Of a DNA stretch of 64,000 nt, positions 51,703 to 56,707 are shown one piece after another (within the stretch, counting starts at the first letter, position 1; each line of letters opens with the position of its first letter). The stretch lies in NCBI RefSeq assembly GCF_013155385.1, contig NZ_JABJUQ010000007.1:373001-437000 (forward strand). Reading direction: 5' to 3'. Both the position numbers and the translations under genes were made by a program. The stretch comes from Bacillus sp. WMMC1349 (GTDB lineage Bacteria > Bacillota > Bacilli > Bacillales > Bacillaceae). The notes beneath the pieces are model-generated. The model searched no databases. It worked only from the letters and a program-made list of their open reading frames with translations, and had not been told where the DNA came from.

Positions 51703-52458
51703 GTGCCAATCAATCAAGAATATCGTGAACAAGTAAAACTCGTTGCATTAGATATGGATGGGACATTATTGAATGCAGAGCATGCCATTTCAGAAGAAAA
51801 TAAACAAGCGATTAAAGAGGCAGAAGAAAAAGGGGTTCATGTTGTGCTCAGTACGGGACGGACGCTGAGGACCGCTCGTGAATTCGCTGAGTCTTTGGGA
51901 CTGACTTCTTATTTAATAACAGTAAATGGCAGTGAAATATGGGATTCTTCTTTTAATCTAGTAGAGCGACAAGTGCTTCATCCCGATCATGTTCAAATGA
52001 TGTGGGGCTTGCGCAATCAGTACGAGACGAACTTTTGGGCGTGTAGTGTTGATAAGGTGTGGCGAGCAGACTTTCCTGAAGATATTTATGCTCATGAATG
52101 GCTAAAATTCGGGTTTGATATTCCTGATCATCATGTGAGAAATCAGGTATTAGAAGAACTGAAAAAAAACAAAGAATTAGAGATTACAAACTCAAGTCCG
52201 ACCAATATTGAGGTTAATACCATTGGCATTAATAAAGGGGCAGCTTTAACAAAAGTATCTGAACGTCTCGGTTTTTCAATGAAGAACGTGATGGCAGTTG
52301 GTGACAGTTTAAATGACATTGCGATGATAAAACAGGCTGGTTTAGGTGTGGCGATGGGGAACGCTCAGGAAATCGTCAAAAAAACGGCTGATTGGGTAAC
52401 AGAAACAAATATCAAAAATGGTGTTGCGAAAGCGATTAGACATTGGGTGTTATCATAA
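51703..52458 (+). CDS. ycsE: HAD-family (Cof-type) phosphatase
   Basis: A 251-residue HAD hydrolase of the Cof/YcsE type, dephosphorylating sugar phosphates or flavin intermediates (B. subtilis YcsE acts on the riboflavin-pathway pyrimidine phosphate). Motif I is LDMDGTLLN (Asp nucleophile near residue 15), motif II STGR, and motifs III-IV are KGAALTKVSERLG and GDSLNDIAMIKQAG. The GTG at 51703 is chosen because GTGGAGG lies about 11 bases upstream; the other in-frame GTG is within that site. It lies 76 bp after ulaA. In B. subtilis it precedes ycsF, as here apart from the inserted toxin patch. Confidence 0.9.
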   Translation: MPINQEYREQVKLVALDMDGTLLNAEHAISEENKQAIKEAEEKGVHVVLSTGRTLRTAREFAESLGLTSYLITVNGSEIWDSSFNLVERQVLHPDHVQMMWGLRNQYETNFWACSVDKVWRADFPEDIYAHEWLKFGFDIPDHHVRNQVLEELKKNKELEITNSSPTNIEVNTIGINKGAALTKVSERLGFSMKNVMAVGDSLNDIAMIKQAGLGVAMGNAQEIVKKTADWVTETNIKNGVAKAIRHWVLS

Positions 52459-52764
52459 TTGCTCACAATCTGATTAAAGGCTTCGAGAAAATCACAGTAT
52501 TAAGAATATATAGTCGGGATTCACATAAAGACAACCTATAAAAACTAAACATCCAGCTATCAAAGAAAAGGAAGCAAGAGGTTAGAACGACTAGTAGAGG
52601 CCGAAGCAACAGGAGAACCTTATGAAGGCAACGTAGCCGGTGCAACTTCTATATTCCCGAATACTGTTATGGTGTGATGAAGGCAAATAACGGGTCGAGA
52701 CGCCAATTTTCTCCTTGGGATGATGAGGATTCATAAAGTGTCTCCATCAAGTAAAACCAAAAAA

Positions 52765-52917
52765 CCGTTTCCGAAGTTTTTGATAGTGGAGTAAGAAATT
52801 TAGTTAAAGAAGTTACGTATTTTGCTGTGAAACCATTAGTTTTGGTGATTGGATGGGGCAAAACAAGAAAACATATAGCTACTCTTGGTCATCACGCTTT
52901 CTTCTCACAATATGCCA
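52765..52917 (+). pseudogene. C-terminal remnant of an unidentified gene
   Basis: An open frame of about 50 codons without a start, containing SGVRNLVKEVTYFAVKPLVL and IATLGHHAFFSQYAK before TAA. A strong hairpin terminator follows 9 bases later, as expected at a genuine gene end. The parent family is not recognised. It is probably what remains of a gene displaced when the toxin patch arrived. Confidence 0.45.
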
Positions 52918-52925
52918 AGTAATTA

Positions 52926-52953
52926 GAAAAACCCTCCATATAGGGTTTTTTTT
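52926..52953 (+). terminator. Terminator after the decayed gene
   Basis: AAAAACCCT (52926-52934) pairs with AGGGTTTTT (52941-52949), followed by a T run. Confidence 0.85.
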
Positions 52954-53123
52954 TGTAAGCAGCGGGTGGATACACGCTTTCTGGTACGTCTTTTGTGTCA
53001 CTATCAGCGGAGAGCCGAATGTTATCTCCCTGAGCAAGACGAAAAAATCTTGCCCACTTTACTCTATTTAATAAGTCACACCGTTGCTTTGGAGGAACAA
53101 CTGGAAAATCTCAACCACTCAAT

Positions 53124-53321
53124 CTACTTTTTTAGCACCTCGTAAACTTTGCACAAGCCCCTCGACTTTCTTATATATTGTGCAACGTCTTCTGCGCTTA
53201 CTTTTTTACTATGTCTCTTGAAGTGTTCAATAACAACTCCGTTTTTATACAACGGCGATTTATTCGGAACCAGGTAGCCAACAAAAAGAACCTTGAGAAA
53301 GTATAAATATACCACCATCAA
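53124..53321 (-). pseudogene. Orphan toxin tip, partial duplicate of the adjacent toxin C-terminus
   Basis: The segment IEHFKRHSKKVSAEDVAQYI followed by RK is homologous to IDHFKRHGKEVGAEDVAQYI of the complete toxin at 53682, in protein and DNA (about 53130-53235 against 53787-53900). The frame then ends early (VLKK-stop), before the region equivalent to the VIRYKKNGKYIDIAPDG end. The upstream part of the frame (to 53321) is unrelated. This is the typical orphan tip of polymorphic toxin loci: spare toxin domain DNA without its own delivery module, here apparently degraded. Confidence 0.75.
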
Positions 53322-53346
53322 GGTTAATAAAACTATTTCTCATTAA

Positions 53347-53670
53347 TCAGAAATCATCTGGGTGAGCCCATTCAAAATCACTCTCAGAAAATACTTCTCG
53401 TTGGTTTAGAAGTTCCATAAAGTTTTTTAAGGTATCTTCTAATGCCTCTGTTATGCTTCTTCCAAATCCAACACCACTTTCAGGAGAACCATCATCCAAG
53501 TTTTTTATTCTAATATTAGTAAACCCTGCATAAGAACCATCAATTCTTTCAAAAACTTTCACTTTAAACTTCCCATAAGGAGTTTTTTGTAACTCCCACA
53601 CTTGAAATTCTCCGACGCATTTTTCAATCTTAGCTATTCCATTAATATTAATATTTTTCCACTCGTCCAT
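53347..53670 (-). CDS. Probable immunity protein of the adjacent toxin
   Basis: A 107-residue acidic soluble protein (MDEWKNININGIAKIEKCVG; PESGVGFGRSITEALEDTLKNFM). AGGAGATG precedes the ATG, and the gene begins 11 bp after the toxin stop on the same strand, the classical toxin-immunity order. It has no signal peptide, so it would neutralise toxin in the cytoplasm. No named immunity family is recognised; the role is inferred from position, size and charge. Confidence 0.7.
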   Translation of the reverse strand: MDEWKNININGIAKIEKCVGEFQVWELQKTPYGKFKVKVFERIDGSYAGFTNIRIKNLDDGSPESGVGFGRSITEALEDTLKNFMELLNQREVFSESDFEWAHPDDF

Positions 53671-53681
53671 TTTTTCATCTC

Positions 53682-55070
53682 CTACTGTTTACCAAATGAA
53701 ATTATTGTACCATCTGGTGCTATATCAATATATTTACCATTCTTTTTGTATCGAATAACTCCTTCAACTTTACCATCTACTCTGCTTTTTTTCGCACCTC
53801 GTAAATTTTGTGCAAACCCCTCAGCTTTTCTTATATATTGTGCAACGTCTTCTGCGCCTACTTCTTTACCGTGTCTCTTGAAGTGGTCAATAGCAGAGTC
53901 ACCTGCTGAATTATAACTTCCCTTATTCCATTTAGATAGGTTTGCTTTGCTTAAATCATAAGCATTACCTACACCCTTAGAAACGTCTTCAGCTGCTTCG
54001 CCAACTTTCGCCATCTTAGAAGTTTCCTCTGTAATCCTCACTGCTTTTCCTGCTATCTTAACAGCACCTGACGTTACTGCACTGATTCCAGCAAGAGCTT
54101 GTTGAAATTCTGATAGCTCCTCTTGTGTAACCAGGTCTTTTCCGGTTGTGGCCTCTATTCCTCCTTTAAAATTTGAGACTATTGGAATGAAATCAAGTAA
54201 AGTGGATAAAGCACGAGCTCCCTCTTTTAATTCCTTTTCTTTTGCTTTTAATTTTTCAGCTTTTCTTTGAGCTGCTTTTAGCTTTTCTCTTTGCTCTTTG
54301 AGTTTTTTTAAGTCTCTCTGTTTACTTTTCGTTTTTTTTGGTTTTTTATTGTATTCATTTATGCGTTTGTAATTTTTATCAATTGCAGTGTTCAGCTTGG
54401 TAGTAGATTTATTTAATTGCTTCATGCCTTTATTTGCCTTATTAATGCCCCTAACCATTTGATTCATACCAGCATTGGCACCATTGATTGCTTTAATCGA
54501 TTCATTTGTGGCTTTTATTGAGACATCCAGCGCTTTATTACAATCATCCATAGCCTTACTGACTTCATTCATAGAAGATACGACATTATCTAGTGCTTTA
54601 TTTGCTTCAGCCACATCTTTATTTAATGCATCTAAATCCTTAATTACTTGATTCTGGGCTTCAATACATTGTTGCATGATTTGATTTACTTCAGATATCC
54701 AGTCCATTACTTCCTTATAAATCCATATTGCTGTTTTAATTGCTGGAATTATTACTGTTTCTATCTCGTGTACTATTTCTTTTGTTTTTTTCTTAATTTT
54801 TTCATGTAATGCTTTAAGCTTGATTTCTACTTTAGCAGCAGCCATTTTCATTTTTTTCTTTAATAGATTCTTTTTTGTTTGATCCAGTGAATCATAGCCT
54901 TTTTTCATTAATTTTAAAAATGCTATATCTTTTTTAATTTTATTAATTTGAGCTTCACTAAGTTCAATCTTTGGAGCCGCCGCATTTGCAACTCCTGACA
55001 TTGATAAATTTGTTGACATAGTAAAAGTTATAAACATTGCTAAAACCAAAATGCTAAGTATCTTTTTCAT
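53682..55070 (-). CDS. Sec-exported coiled-coil polymorphic toxin with PT-TG and C-terminal RNase-like tip
   Basis: A 462-residue protein. The ATG at 55070 has AGGGAG 8 bases upstream. A Sec signal peptide (about 1-30, MKKILSILVLAMFITFTMST ending ANA) is followed by a long Lys-rich helical/coiled-coil region (about 40-285; repeated N-x-A/N-x-G heptads), a pre-toxin TG-type domain (about 291-345; DFIPIVSNFKGGIEATTGKD) and a C-terminal toxin of about 78 residues (385-462) with HFKRHGKE, VIRYKKNGKYIDIAPDGTII. The HFxKH...RY...DG.I pattern resembles BECR-fold RNase toxins. It lacks an LXG domain, so delivery differs from LXG/type VII toxins. Immunity gene follows at 53670. Confidence 0.75.
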   Translation of the reverse strand: MKKILSILVLAMFITFTMSTNLSMSGVANAAAPKIELSEAQINKIKKDIAFLKLMKKGYDSLDQTKKNLLKKKMKMAAAKVEIKLKALHEKIKKKTKEIVHEIETVIIPAIKTAIWIYKEVMDWISEVNQIMQQCIEAQNQVIKDLDALNKDVAEANKALDNVVSSMNEVSKAMDDCNKALDVSIKATNESIKAINGANAGMNQMVRGINKANKGMKQLNKSTTKLNTAIDKNYKRINEYNKKPKKTKSKQRDLKKLKEQREKLKAAQRKAEKLKAKEKELKEGARALSTLLDFIPIVSNFKGGIEATTGKDLVTQEELSEFQQALAGISAVTSGAVKIAGKAVRITEETSKMAKVGEAAEDVSKGVGNAYDLSKANLSKWNKGSYNSAGDSAIDHFKRHGKEVGAEDVAQYIRKAEGFAQNLRGAKKSRVDGKVEGVIRYKKNGKYIDIAPDGTIISFGKQ

Positions 55071-55645
55071 ATCTCTTTCTCCCTTTAAAATAAATTTTAT
55101 TGCAAAAATATACATGAGAATGTCGAAAAAAGCTTTATTTTACTGAATGTTGAAATAATTTTGATTACTTTCTTTCTCATTCCTTGAACTTATTACCATA
55201 AAAGTTCAAACTTTTTATACCTGTAACATTAAGTCGCTTATCTAAAAAGACGGATAAGCTGCTATATATAATGGATCAACCCACTCACCCCCTATTAAAT
55301 ATTTCAGAATAGTCTACCACTAGCCTATTCAAAGAATAGCTATTGTCTCCAATTCTGGTTGCTAGGACTATGATATAAAAAAGAGGTAAACCTATTTAAA
55401 TGTATTTCAATTAAATGTATTTCAGTATAATTAAAGAAAAACCCTTTTAAATTTTGAAAAATAGTAAAAAAGTACCTATTATGGTTAGTTTCTAGTTTGT
55501 TCTTCGGTTAACAGGTCTGGAATTTGCAATAAAACTACATGTTGACATCTTTTTAAAAAATTCGAACATGCTGTCTTCTTTCTTTAACGTTTTTTTTAGA
55601 ACTATGATCATCTAAGTGTTGTGTTTATAGTCTTAATGAATTGAC

Positions 55646-55665
55646 AAAGTGAAACATTTCACTTT
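55646..55665. promoter_or_regulatory. Perfect palindrome overlapping a -35-like TTGACA
   Basis: AAAGTGAAACATTTCACTTT has 9-bp perfect arms. TTGACA at 55641-55646 abuts it, and a weak -10 (TTAAAA, 55664-55669) follows at 17 bp, the layout of a repressor operator. No gene follows within 270 bp; the regulator is unknown. Confidence 0.45.
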
Positions 55666-55836
55666 AAAACCCCAAGTTCTCTTTACAATTAGGGTTTGAT
55701 TAAGGCTCTTTTTTTGTATGCAAAAAATTTTTTCGTTCAGATTGGTTTTAAAAAAACGTGATGTATGACCAATTGATAGCGCTTCACTAGATGTTAGGTT
55801 TTCTAACAAATAGGTGCTAAGAACATAAAACCCTGT

Positions 55837-55890
55837 TATAATTTAATTCAAGTTTGATTATTCGGAATTGTTGTTCCGATAATCGGAACA
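55837..55890 (+). promoter_or_regulatory. pxpA operon promoter -10 and candidate KipR operator
   Basis: TATAAT at 55837-55842; no good -35. A perfect palindrome, TGTTCCGATAATCGGAACA (55872-55890), lies about 25 bp after the predicted transcript start. The NTTCCG...CGGAAN form is typical for IclR-family operators, and an IclR regulator (kipR) is encoded in the operon. Confidence 0.65.
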
Positions 55891-55945
55891 AATCAGACTT
55901 TACTATTTCTTAAAAAAATGCACATGAATATAAAGGAGGGATTTG

Positions 55946-56707
55946 ATGGTTTGTGTTGATTTAAACTGTGATCTTGGAGAGAGTTTTGGTGCATATCAAA
56001 TTGGATTAGACAAAGATATTTTGCAGTTTGTCACATCAGCCAATATCGCTTGCGGATTCCATGCGGGAGATCCGAGTGTCATGCGGAAAACCGTCACACT
56101 GGCAGCTGACAAAGGTGTTGCCATTGGTGCACATCCTGGACTTCCTGATTTAGCTGGATTTGGCCGCCGCAATATGGCGATTACGCCTGAAGAAGCCTAT
56201 GACCTTGTCATTTATCAAATTGGTGCCCTTTCAGGTTTTCTAAAAGCAGAAGGTGTTCAAATGCAGCATGTTAAGCCGCATGGGGCACTCTATAATATGG
56301 CTGCAAAAAATAGACGATTATCAGATGCAATTGCCCGTGCCATATTTAAGATAGATTCTAATCTCATATTGTTCGGTTTGGCAGGAAGTGAACTTGTACT
56401 TGCTGGAGAAAGAGCCGGATTGAAGACAGCTTATGAAGTGTTTGCTGACCGTACATATCAAGAAGACGGTACACTTACTTCACGGGTTCATGATGATGCG
56501 CTGATTCAAGATGATGAAGTGGCTGTCAATCAAGTGGTCCGAATGGTTAAGGAAGGAAAAGTCCGAAGTCGTGAAGGGAAAGATATTTGTCTGAAAGCTG
56601 ATACAGTCTGTATTCACGGAGACAGTGCTCATGCCCTTCAATTTGCAAAAAAAATTCGTGCAGAATTTGAAAAATCAAATATAAAAGTTCAAGCCTTTTC
56701 AACATGA
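55946..56707 (+). CDS. pxpA: 5-oxoprolinase subunit A (LamB/YcsF family)
   Basis: A 253-residue LamB/YcsF protein, one of three subunits of the prokaryotic ATP-dependent 5-oxoprolinase that opens pyroglutamate to glutamate. It starts [20 protein letters not shown] and has [26 protein letters not shown] and [12 protein letters not shown], all family signatures with conserved metal-type His and Asp residues. ATG 55946 is used, 5 bases after AAAGGAGGG. It heads an operon of six co-directional genes. Confidence 0.95.

Follow-up and report, generated by a model that had tools for sequence, protein, structure and literature searches.

How would a Bacillus cell use a toxin that carries a PT-TG pre-toxin domain behind a Sec signal peptide, with no LXG domain for export through type VII secretion (T7SS)? 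We studied this question on a gene at positions 53682-55070 of the window, i.e., the whole stretch of 64,000 nucleotides analysed here. The gene lies on the reverse strand and is a real open reading frame in the ORF list (53685-55070 without the stop codon), encoding 462 aa from an ATG at 55070 that follows a strong ribosome-binding site (GGGAGAAAGAGAT-ATG); a longer version of 477 aa starting at 55115 was judged less likely. Its product consists of a predicted Sec signal peptide (residues 1-30, 54981-55070), a Lys-rich, heptad-patterned coil (residues 31-285, 54216-54980), the PT-TG domain (residues 286-343, 54042-54215), a junction between the constant part and the tips, placed by DNA similarity breakpoints (residues 344-380, 53931-54041), and a toxin tip of 82 aa (residues 381-462, 53685-53930), all on the reverse strand. 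The coil contains 54 Lys and has a net charge of +26, and none of 500 shuffles reached its mean heptad score; PT-TG was recognised in a Pfam scan (PF14449, E 2.4e-17, 63.1 bits against a gathering score of 23.5). The original prediction had described just this arrangement of signal, Lys-rich coil, PT-TG and tip without LXG, and the sequence confirmed it, including a coil length of some 240 residues that was about right. The reading that we favour, and consider probable from the sequence comparisons below, is that of a polymorphic toxin-immunity module on a Sec-exported, lineage-restricted chassis.

The signal peptide was judged by its charge, hydrophobic core and cleavage site, and by comparison with relatives. 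It runs from MKKILSILVLAMFITFTMS to VANA, has a hydrophobic core score of 2.84 and ends in an A-x-A site with the predicted cut between ANA and AAP. Its composition is accompanied by similar signal peptides in six relatives: six of the seven chassis proteins with a visible N-terminus have an AxA cleavage site, and the seventh, L017, has VYA. This form is kept in chassis proteins that are only about 24-29% identical, which supports the predicted cleavable Sec signal, and Sec export of the window toxin is well supported by these features.

The available text of two sources places PT-TG on WXG100 proteins (PMC6171300) and, together with LXG, in EsaD (PMC10941976). A census of the genus gave the same general picture as the original prediction, in which PT-TG was said to be carried usually by LXG proteins. 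PT-TG was present in 43 of 44 same-genus genomes, LXG likewise in 43, and 82 of 97 PT-TG ORFs matched an LXG profile at E up to 1e-5, the profile having been built from eight sequences of the same 97-ORF set, which match by construction. The 97 ORFs include duplicates (L013/L111 and L014/L110 are the same loci, and L094/L105 overlap) and exclude the window's own copies; further PT-TG places outside this set were put aside by eye, with LXG beside them among the matches listed. The 15 ORFs that did not match the LXG profile were eight chassis ORFs, i.e., five proteins (two counted twice) plus the cut L015, and seven ORFs of 135-331 aa. A hydrophobic start of at least 2.83 was found in seven ORFs, representing five chassis proteins, and the score was at most 1.51 in 89 of the 97 (including L015) and 2.10 in a single ORF with an apparent wrong start; the window toxin and L134, a chassis protein from another family, scored 2.84 and 3.08. 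Both the LXG counts and the hydrophobic-start counts therefore make the Sec form a minority among the PT-TG ORFs of the genus. Among 14 control genomes, B. subtilis alone was positive for both PT-TG and LXG.

Given these numbers, the window toxin might be regarded as a T7SS substrate whose N-terminus derives by divergence from an LXG/WXG-like helical domain and whose hydrophobic start is incidental, especially as these genomes are rich in LXG proteins (G000 has 22 PF04740 matches among those listed), PT-TG is mostly found on LXG proteins, and the chassis relative L016 showed weak WXG100 matches below the cut-off. However, Pfam scanning revealed no PF04740 in the whole toxin (E up to 1) and none in residues 31-285 (E up to 0.01), whereas two same-genus LXG proteins used as controls gave 3e-54 and 3.5e-42; when the coil and LXG domains were compared profile to profile, the probability was 0.3%, and the LXG profile matched neither the window toxin nor L134 nor any of the eight chassis ORFs. 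Inspection by eye revealed no Lap-like partner genes upstream of the window gene or of the chassis loci. With the signal-peptide form also maintained across so much divergence, we consider T7SS export very improbable and retain Sec export. At the chassis locus L115, ORFs of 84 and 64 aa lie directly upstream of the chassis gene.

The original prediction called for a search for the same N-terminus with other tips. It was carried out as a protein search in the 44 genomes of the genus and with a profile of six N-termini against 80 genomes of the family and 397 of the order. The full-length N-terminus was present in six of the 44 same-genus genomes (G000, G003, G016, G017, G028 and G031), and in a seventh, G037, it is cut by a contig end and begins at about residue 81. 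The other 36 family genomes gave PT-TG matches only, at E up to 1e-8 and covering at most part of the coil. A full-length chassis was also found in at least one genome of another family (G122, locus L134); at most four candidates were scored per genome, which makes the number for the order a minimum. Sixteen further profile loci were examined (L125, L126, L128, L130, L132-L138, L140, L141, L144, L147 and L149) and yielded one full relative, L134 (E 8.2e-59); the other 15 (E 3.4e-21 to 5.8e-9) shared PT-TG or generic coil only, as judged by eye. Weaker loci, e.g., L127, L129, L131, L139, L142, L143, L145, L146, L148 and L150-L159, were left out of this inspection. L133 (1531-2169), which belongs to the window's own genome, encodes a protein made up of tandem units (MDGRFDGLDDRLE-like) that are short, hydrophilic and degenerate; its match is one of generic coil only.

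Alignment with the relatives separated a constant part from exchangeable tips. The window toxin was 54% identical to L013 over 385 aa and 53% identical to L014 over 381 aa, and both alignments then diverged; identity of the constant part was 50% with the cut copy L015 and 26-29% with the remaining relatives. Six tip types were distinguished on the one N-terminus: those of the window, L013, L014/L015, L016/L018, L017 and L134. Those of L013, L017 and L134 could not be given a name. The L016/L018 tip is barnase (PF00545, E 2.1e-14 in L016; for L018, a match of 1.3e-14 in its genome, G016), followed directly downstream by barstar (PF01337, E 1.9e-28 in L016 and 2.5e-26 in L018), and the L014 tip is of the colicin E3 type (PF09000, E 5.8e-5, 23.8 bits against a cut-off of 22). 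A small ORF on the same strand, at most 20 bp behind the toxin gene, was present in all eight loci with an intact 3' end, namely the window, L013 (read in L113), L014, L015, L016, L017, L018 and L134; it could be assigned to a family, barstar, in L016 and L018 only. The search thus returned what had been predicted, and because the N-terminus pairs with other tips and with small downstream genes, it can be taken as a distinct polymorphic-toxin chassis. The marks of a polymorphic toxin found here are a constant N-terminus with unrelated tips, an adjoining small gene and displaced remnants.

Displaced remnants and replaced tips were most evident in two genomes. In G017 (locus L113), a newer tip and its 79-aa neighbour gene are followed by the remnant of a barnase end, 90.9% identical to the L016 tip over 22 aa, and by a barstar-like gene that is 57% identical to the L016 barstar over 91 aa. 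The window locus likewise keeps a remnant (53127-53234), here of the tip type that is also present intact. In G017 and G028 the chassis gene sits at a shared site, with a Rap-like gene ahead of it and genes for a urea transporter and urease behind it (identified by eye); the DNA of the two is 82% identical through the whole constant part, the tips differ, and past the constant part no DNA match was found (E up to 1e-10) before the urea transporter. Tip types were also shared with other carriers: that of L013 with L128 (54% over 187 aa including PT-TG), which did not match the LXG profile; that of L014 with L105 (45% over 162 aa of PT-TG and tip), which did match it (E 5.7e-23); and that of L134 with the fragment L019 (58%). 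In G028 and G017, quorum control is hinted at by the Rap-phosphatase-like TPR gene (L112:3436-4599 and L113:4180-5310; named by eye), which precedes the toxin gene by 0.55-0.65 kb; no such gene was seen beside the window locus.

The gene next to the window toxin, P0002 (53347-53670, reverse strand), begins 11 bp downstream and encodes 107 aa with a net charge of -7. Neither Pfam nor NCBIfam gave a match for it (E up to 1), the PDB gave only chance-level ones, and no signal peptide was seen (hydrophobic score 0.53); the barstars behind the chassis likewise showed none by eye. Since P0002 and the barstars are without signal peptides, the target of the tips is probably cytoplasmic. Relatives of P0002, 40-50% identical, follow the same tip in L003, L004 and L009 at 10-11 bp and in L012 at 138 bp, which makes P0002 the likely immunity gene of the window tip. 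Other ORFs stand behind the tip in L005, L006 and L007 (by eye), and at L008 (5694-6287, Paenibacillus maysiensis) P0002-like DNA adjoins the tip in inverted orientation, the end of the tip being disrupted; the pairing is therefore common, not strict.

Relatives of the window tip were found at 10 loci in Paenibacillus, Clostridium/Lachnospiraceae-type and Sporosarcina contigs, and the tip profile was positive in nine of 398 phylum genomes, G000 included. The carriers are of other kinds than the chassis: L003, an RHS/Hint protein of 2038 aa, has RHS repeats (PF05593), PT-HINT and an N-terminus resembling a signal peptide, and L012 (155 aa), L161-L164 and L166-L168 are short secreted proteins. 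The expectation that tips of this kind ride on LXG or WXG proteins failed here, as the relatives are on RHS-type and short secreted proteins and none on an LXG protein was seen among the tip-relative loci. At the DNA level, similarity between the window and the constant part of L013/L014 ends at 54002, and similarity with L003/L004 begins at 53930, covers the tip and the start of the immunity gene, and stops at the chassis. Such breakpoints are as expected of a tip and immunity gene that would have moved as a cassette.

Barnase itself has a wide range of carriers in the genus. PF00545 gave 33 matches in 30 of the 44 genomes: 29 in open frames of at most 182 aa (three with stop codons or partial), two on the chassis, one in a 492-aa frame and one in a 1774-aa frame. 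The abundance of short frames, together with the occurrence of the window tip in short secreted form (L012, L161 and L166-L168), would suit a secreted degradative nuclease for nutrient scavenging, comparable to short extracellular barnase, in which the long N-terminal part is a pro-region and the immunity genes guard the producer only. We think this unlikely, as the six tip types, the displaced remnant and a cassette in common with RHS-type proteins are marks of conflict systems and not of a housekeeping enzyme, and we keep to the toxin-immunity module. The 492-aa frame lies beside an LXG match (G028:C1:3710939-3711220, L201) and the 1774-aa frame at G020:C87:12651-12917, so that the barnase family has about four kinds of carrier within one genus.

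The original prediction had called the tip RNase-like. A tip is indeed present; the RNase assignment found no direct family or structure match, and only an indirect link to the structure 8ey4_A. The scans covered the whole protein, the tip with diverged relatives (Pfam, E up to 10) and 12 tips (NCBIfam), and no credible direct match of the window tip was obtained in Pfam, NCBIfam or the PDB; PF00545 in particular is absent from it, and hhalign comparison with 95 C-termini (some double) gave 2.3% at best. A search for Ntox35, chosen for the likeness of its published "H, KH" signature to HxxKH, was negative in 348 genomes; the controls were blank as well, so that this negative carries no weight. 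Designed beta-trefoils in the PDB matched a short stretch near RYKKNGKYIDIAPDGTI and were rejected as chance. In the alignment of the window tip with 10 relatives, H396, H400, Y412 and A416 are invariant in all 11 sequences; the two invariant His are accompanied by a late S, replaced by T in L168, the most distant member. L008 was part of alignment A3 and left out of A5, A6 and A9, L004 was in A3 and A5 and left out of A6 and A9, and L010/L011, whose frame is broken, were in none. The late Ser/Thr and the two His call to mind the BECR RNases of PMC3482391, whose fold is a helix followed by a four-strand meander with His and S/T in the active site, and the tip, judged by eye, has a helix-then-strand order.

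The link to 8ey4_A runs through L168. The tip profile picked up this relative (E 9.9e-5 over 34 positions). Against a profile built without it, L168 scored 12.0 bits, and none of its 1987 scored shuffles went above 7.8. L168 matches 8ey4_A, a "PT-VENN domain-containing protein", with E 6.4e-12 over 79 of 88 residues. The tip-only profile A9, which contains L168, reached 8ey4_A at E 0.028 over 29 positions, ranked below the designed beta-trefoils; profile A6, with signal peptides included, gave E 0.21; and the window tip alone did not list 8ey4_A at E up to 1. We take 8ey4_A to be a CdiA tip. In the accessible portion of PMC13068155, 8ey4 is described as an E. coli toxin-immunity protein. A relationship of the window tip with the 8ey4_A domain is suggested by these comparisons; 8ey4_A is matched by L168 and not significantly by the window tip, and it has a different carrier. 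The two invariant His, the helix-then-strand order, the 8ey4_A link and the company of nuclease tips make a nuclease, perhaps a metal-independent RNase, the most likely function of the tip, on slender evidence. L168 itself (1348-1839) is an exported-looking protein of 163 aa whose C-terminal part matches 8ey4_A and which has no Pfam family.

The proposal that the protein is held at the wall, with the coil as a stalk, found no support. Motif checks of the window toxin revealed neither a lipobox nor an LPxTG-type sorting signal, and the Pfam scan gave weak matches, below the cut-off, to YkyA (a putative wall-binding family) and DUF948; nothing recognisable as an entry domain, a receptor-binding part or a releasing peptidase was seen. 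These sub-threshold matches, the strong basic coil and the decayed further copy of the window tip type beside the gene (53127-53234, reverse strand; tblastn 58% over 36 aa, DNA 87% over 109 positions including one gap) would agree with a wall-bound coiled-coil protein, such as an adhesin or a biofilm component, that has lost the activity of its tip. It is a remote prospect, though, as the tip has kept its invariant residues, the immunity gene is whole and an anchor motif is lacking, and we prefer an active toxin with its immunity protein.

All parts of the locus lie within a 3.2-kb block (52465-55696) that is missing from the nearest relative. By its pxpA-like neighbour gene this relative is G006 (95% there), which gave no match to the window toxin in the genus protein search; in its locus L233 the flanks, 93-95% identical, are 7 bp apart. 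G028 and G012 are also without the block at this site. The G+C content is 26-36% between 53500 and 55500 and 37-46% in most of the flanks. Contamination of G000 was estimated at 5.56%; the block is inside a 4.0-Mb contig and its flanks match G006. No integrase or transposase was recognised by eye among the ORFs of the block, and its ends have only short, chance-level matches in common. Rfam had no match in 52000-56200, promoter-like sites around the locus were no commoner than in shuffles, and five terminator-like sites were found (1.9 expected), none clearly placed behind genes. The search of viral contigs confirmed no relative of the tip or of the N-terminus, phages gave no match, and plasmids had no match to the tip. 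With the whole protein, plasmids gave four weak matches in the coil region, three in Streptomyces clavuligerus and one in Priestia megaterium; one of these, on an S. clavuligerus megaplasmid (NZ_CP045850.1:1187867-1188520), is a tblastn match of 27% over 52% of the query, in coil and PT-TG, with no annotated gene listed under it.

If the locus is a toxin-immunity module as we favour, the precursor would be exported through Sec and cut after ANA, the basic coil would hold the toxin near the envelope or bind neighbouring cells, and PT-TG would serve as a linker or processing site. The tip would then enter competing cells and act in their cytoplasm, and the signal-less immunity protein would neutralise it.

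The closest known arrangement is that of Neisseria MafB/MafI. Sec-exported polymorphic toxins with lineage-specific N-domains, MafB among them, are described in the part of PMC3482391 available to us, and the secretion of MafB depends on its signal peptide according to the available text of PMC4287609. As far as these sources (PMC4287609, PMC3482391) go, the chassis resembles MafB/MafI in its signal peptide, its lineage-restricted, repeat-free N-domain, its variable tip with a downstream immunity gene, and the leftover C-terminal cassettes. It differs in belonging to another phylum, in having a coiled coil and PT-TG, and in the lack of a MafB-N (DUF1020) match in the window toxin (Pfam, E up to 1) and of a MafA-like lipoprotein gene beside the window gene. 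Bacillus has LXG-PT-TG toxins of T7SSb, e.g., YeeF, YobL and YxiD, with which the chassis has the PT-TG linker and variable tips in common, and even a tip type in the case of L014 and L105; unlike them, the window toxin has a Sec signal peptide instead of LXG. WapA is a known Sec-type toxin of Gram-positives (PMC12704120, PMC5566331, as far as their available text goes). The RHS/WapA group resembles the window toxin in Sec export in a Gram-positive and, through L003, in the same tip-immunity cassette, but the window toxin is without RHS repeats (no PF05593) and without Hint, and has 462 aa versus the 2038 of L003. The barnase-barstar pair appears here as one chassis tip with its adjacent barstar; the window toxin carries a tip other than barnase. 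A signal peptide is also used by the short, secreted form of barnase. Sec-exported alarmone synthetases without immunity genes, as described in the accessible part of PMC12691689, are another kind of exported enzyme.

The titles and abstracts of the literature searched, mostly open-access, contained no description of this chassis; with MafB and WapA as Sec-exported precedents, the kind is known and the chassis appears to be undescribed. The original prediction of a little-described delivery architecture holds in part: Sec export was already known from WapA and MafB, and the coiled-coil chassis appears to be the new part. A bolder reading, which we put forward tentatively and would not quite bet on, is that of a Gram-positive counterpart of MafB, in which a Sec-exported coiled-coil chassis, apart from T7SS and RHS/WapA, delivers interchangeable intracellular nucleases, barnase included, into neighbouring cells with the coil as a delivery or docking device. 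If this were true, the barnase-barstar pair could serve an antibacterial delivery system as one of its cassettes, and the short secreted form of barnase might be a reduced descendant of such systems or a donor to them. Discussion of contact killing by protein toxins in Bacillus has mostly centred on T7SS LXG toxins and WapA. The present chassis would be a third, Sec-exported, repeat-free and of about 500 aa, with barnase as one of its tips. It would give barnase-barstar a plausible setting in bacterial conflict, and it poses, in a small and testable system, the question of the route by which a Sec-exported nuclease crosses the envelope of a neighbour.

Diverged tips of the window type also occur at L161-L172, mostly in genus g268, on secreted proteins of about 270 aa, several of them in tandem. 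They are followed by a gene for 116-119 aa, and a tyrosyl-tRNA synthetase-like gene adjoins them (by eye); the tandem genes could possibly form a small-toxin array.
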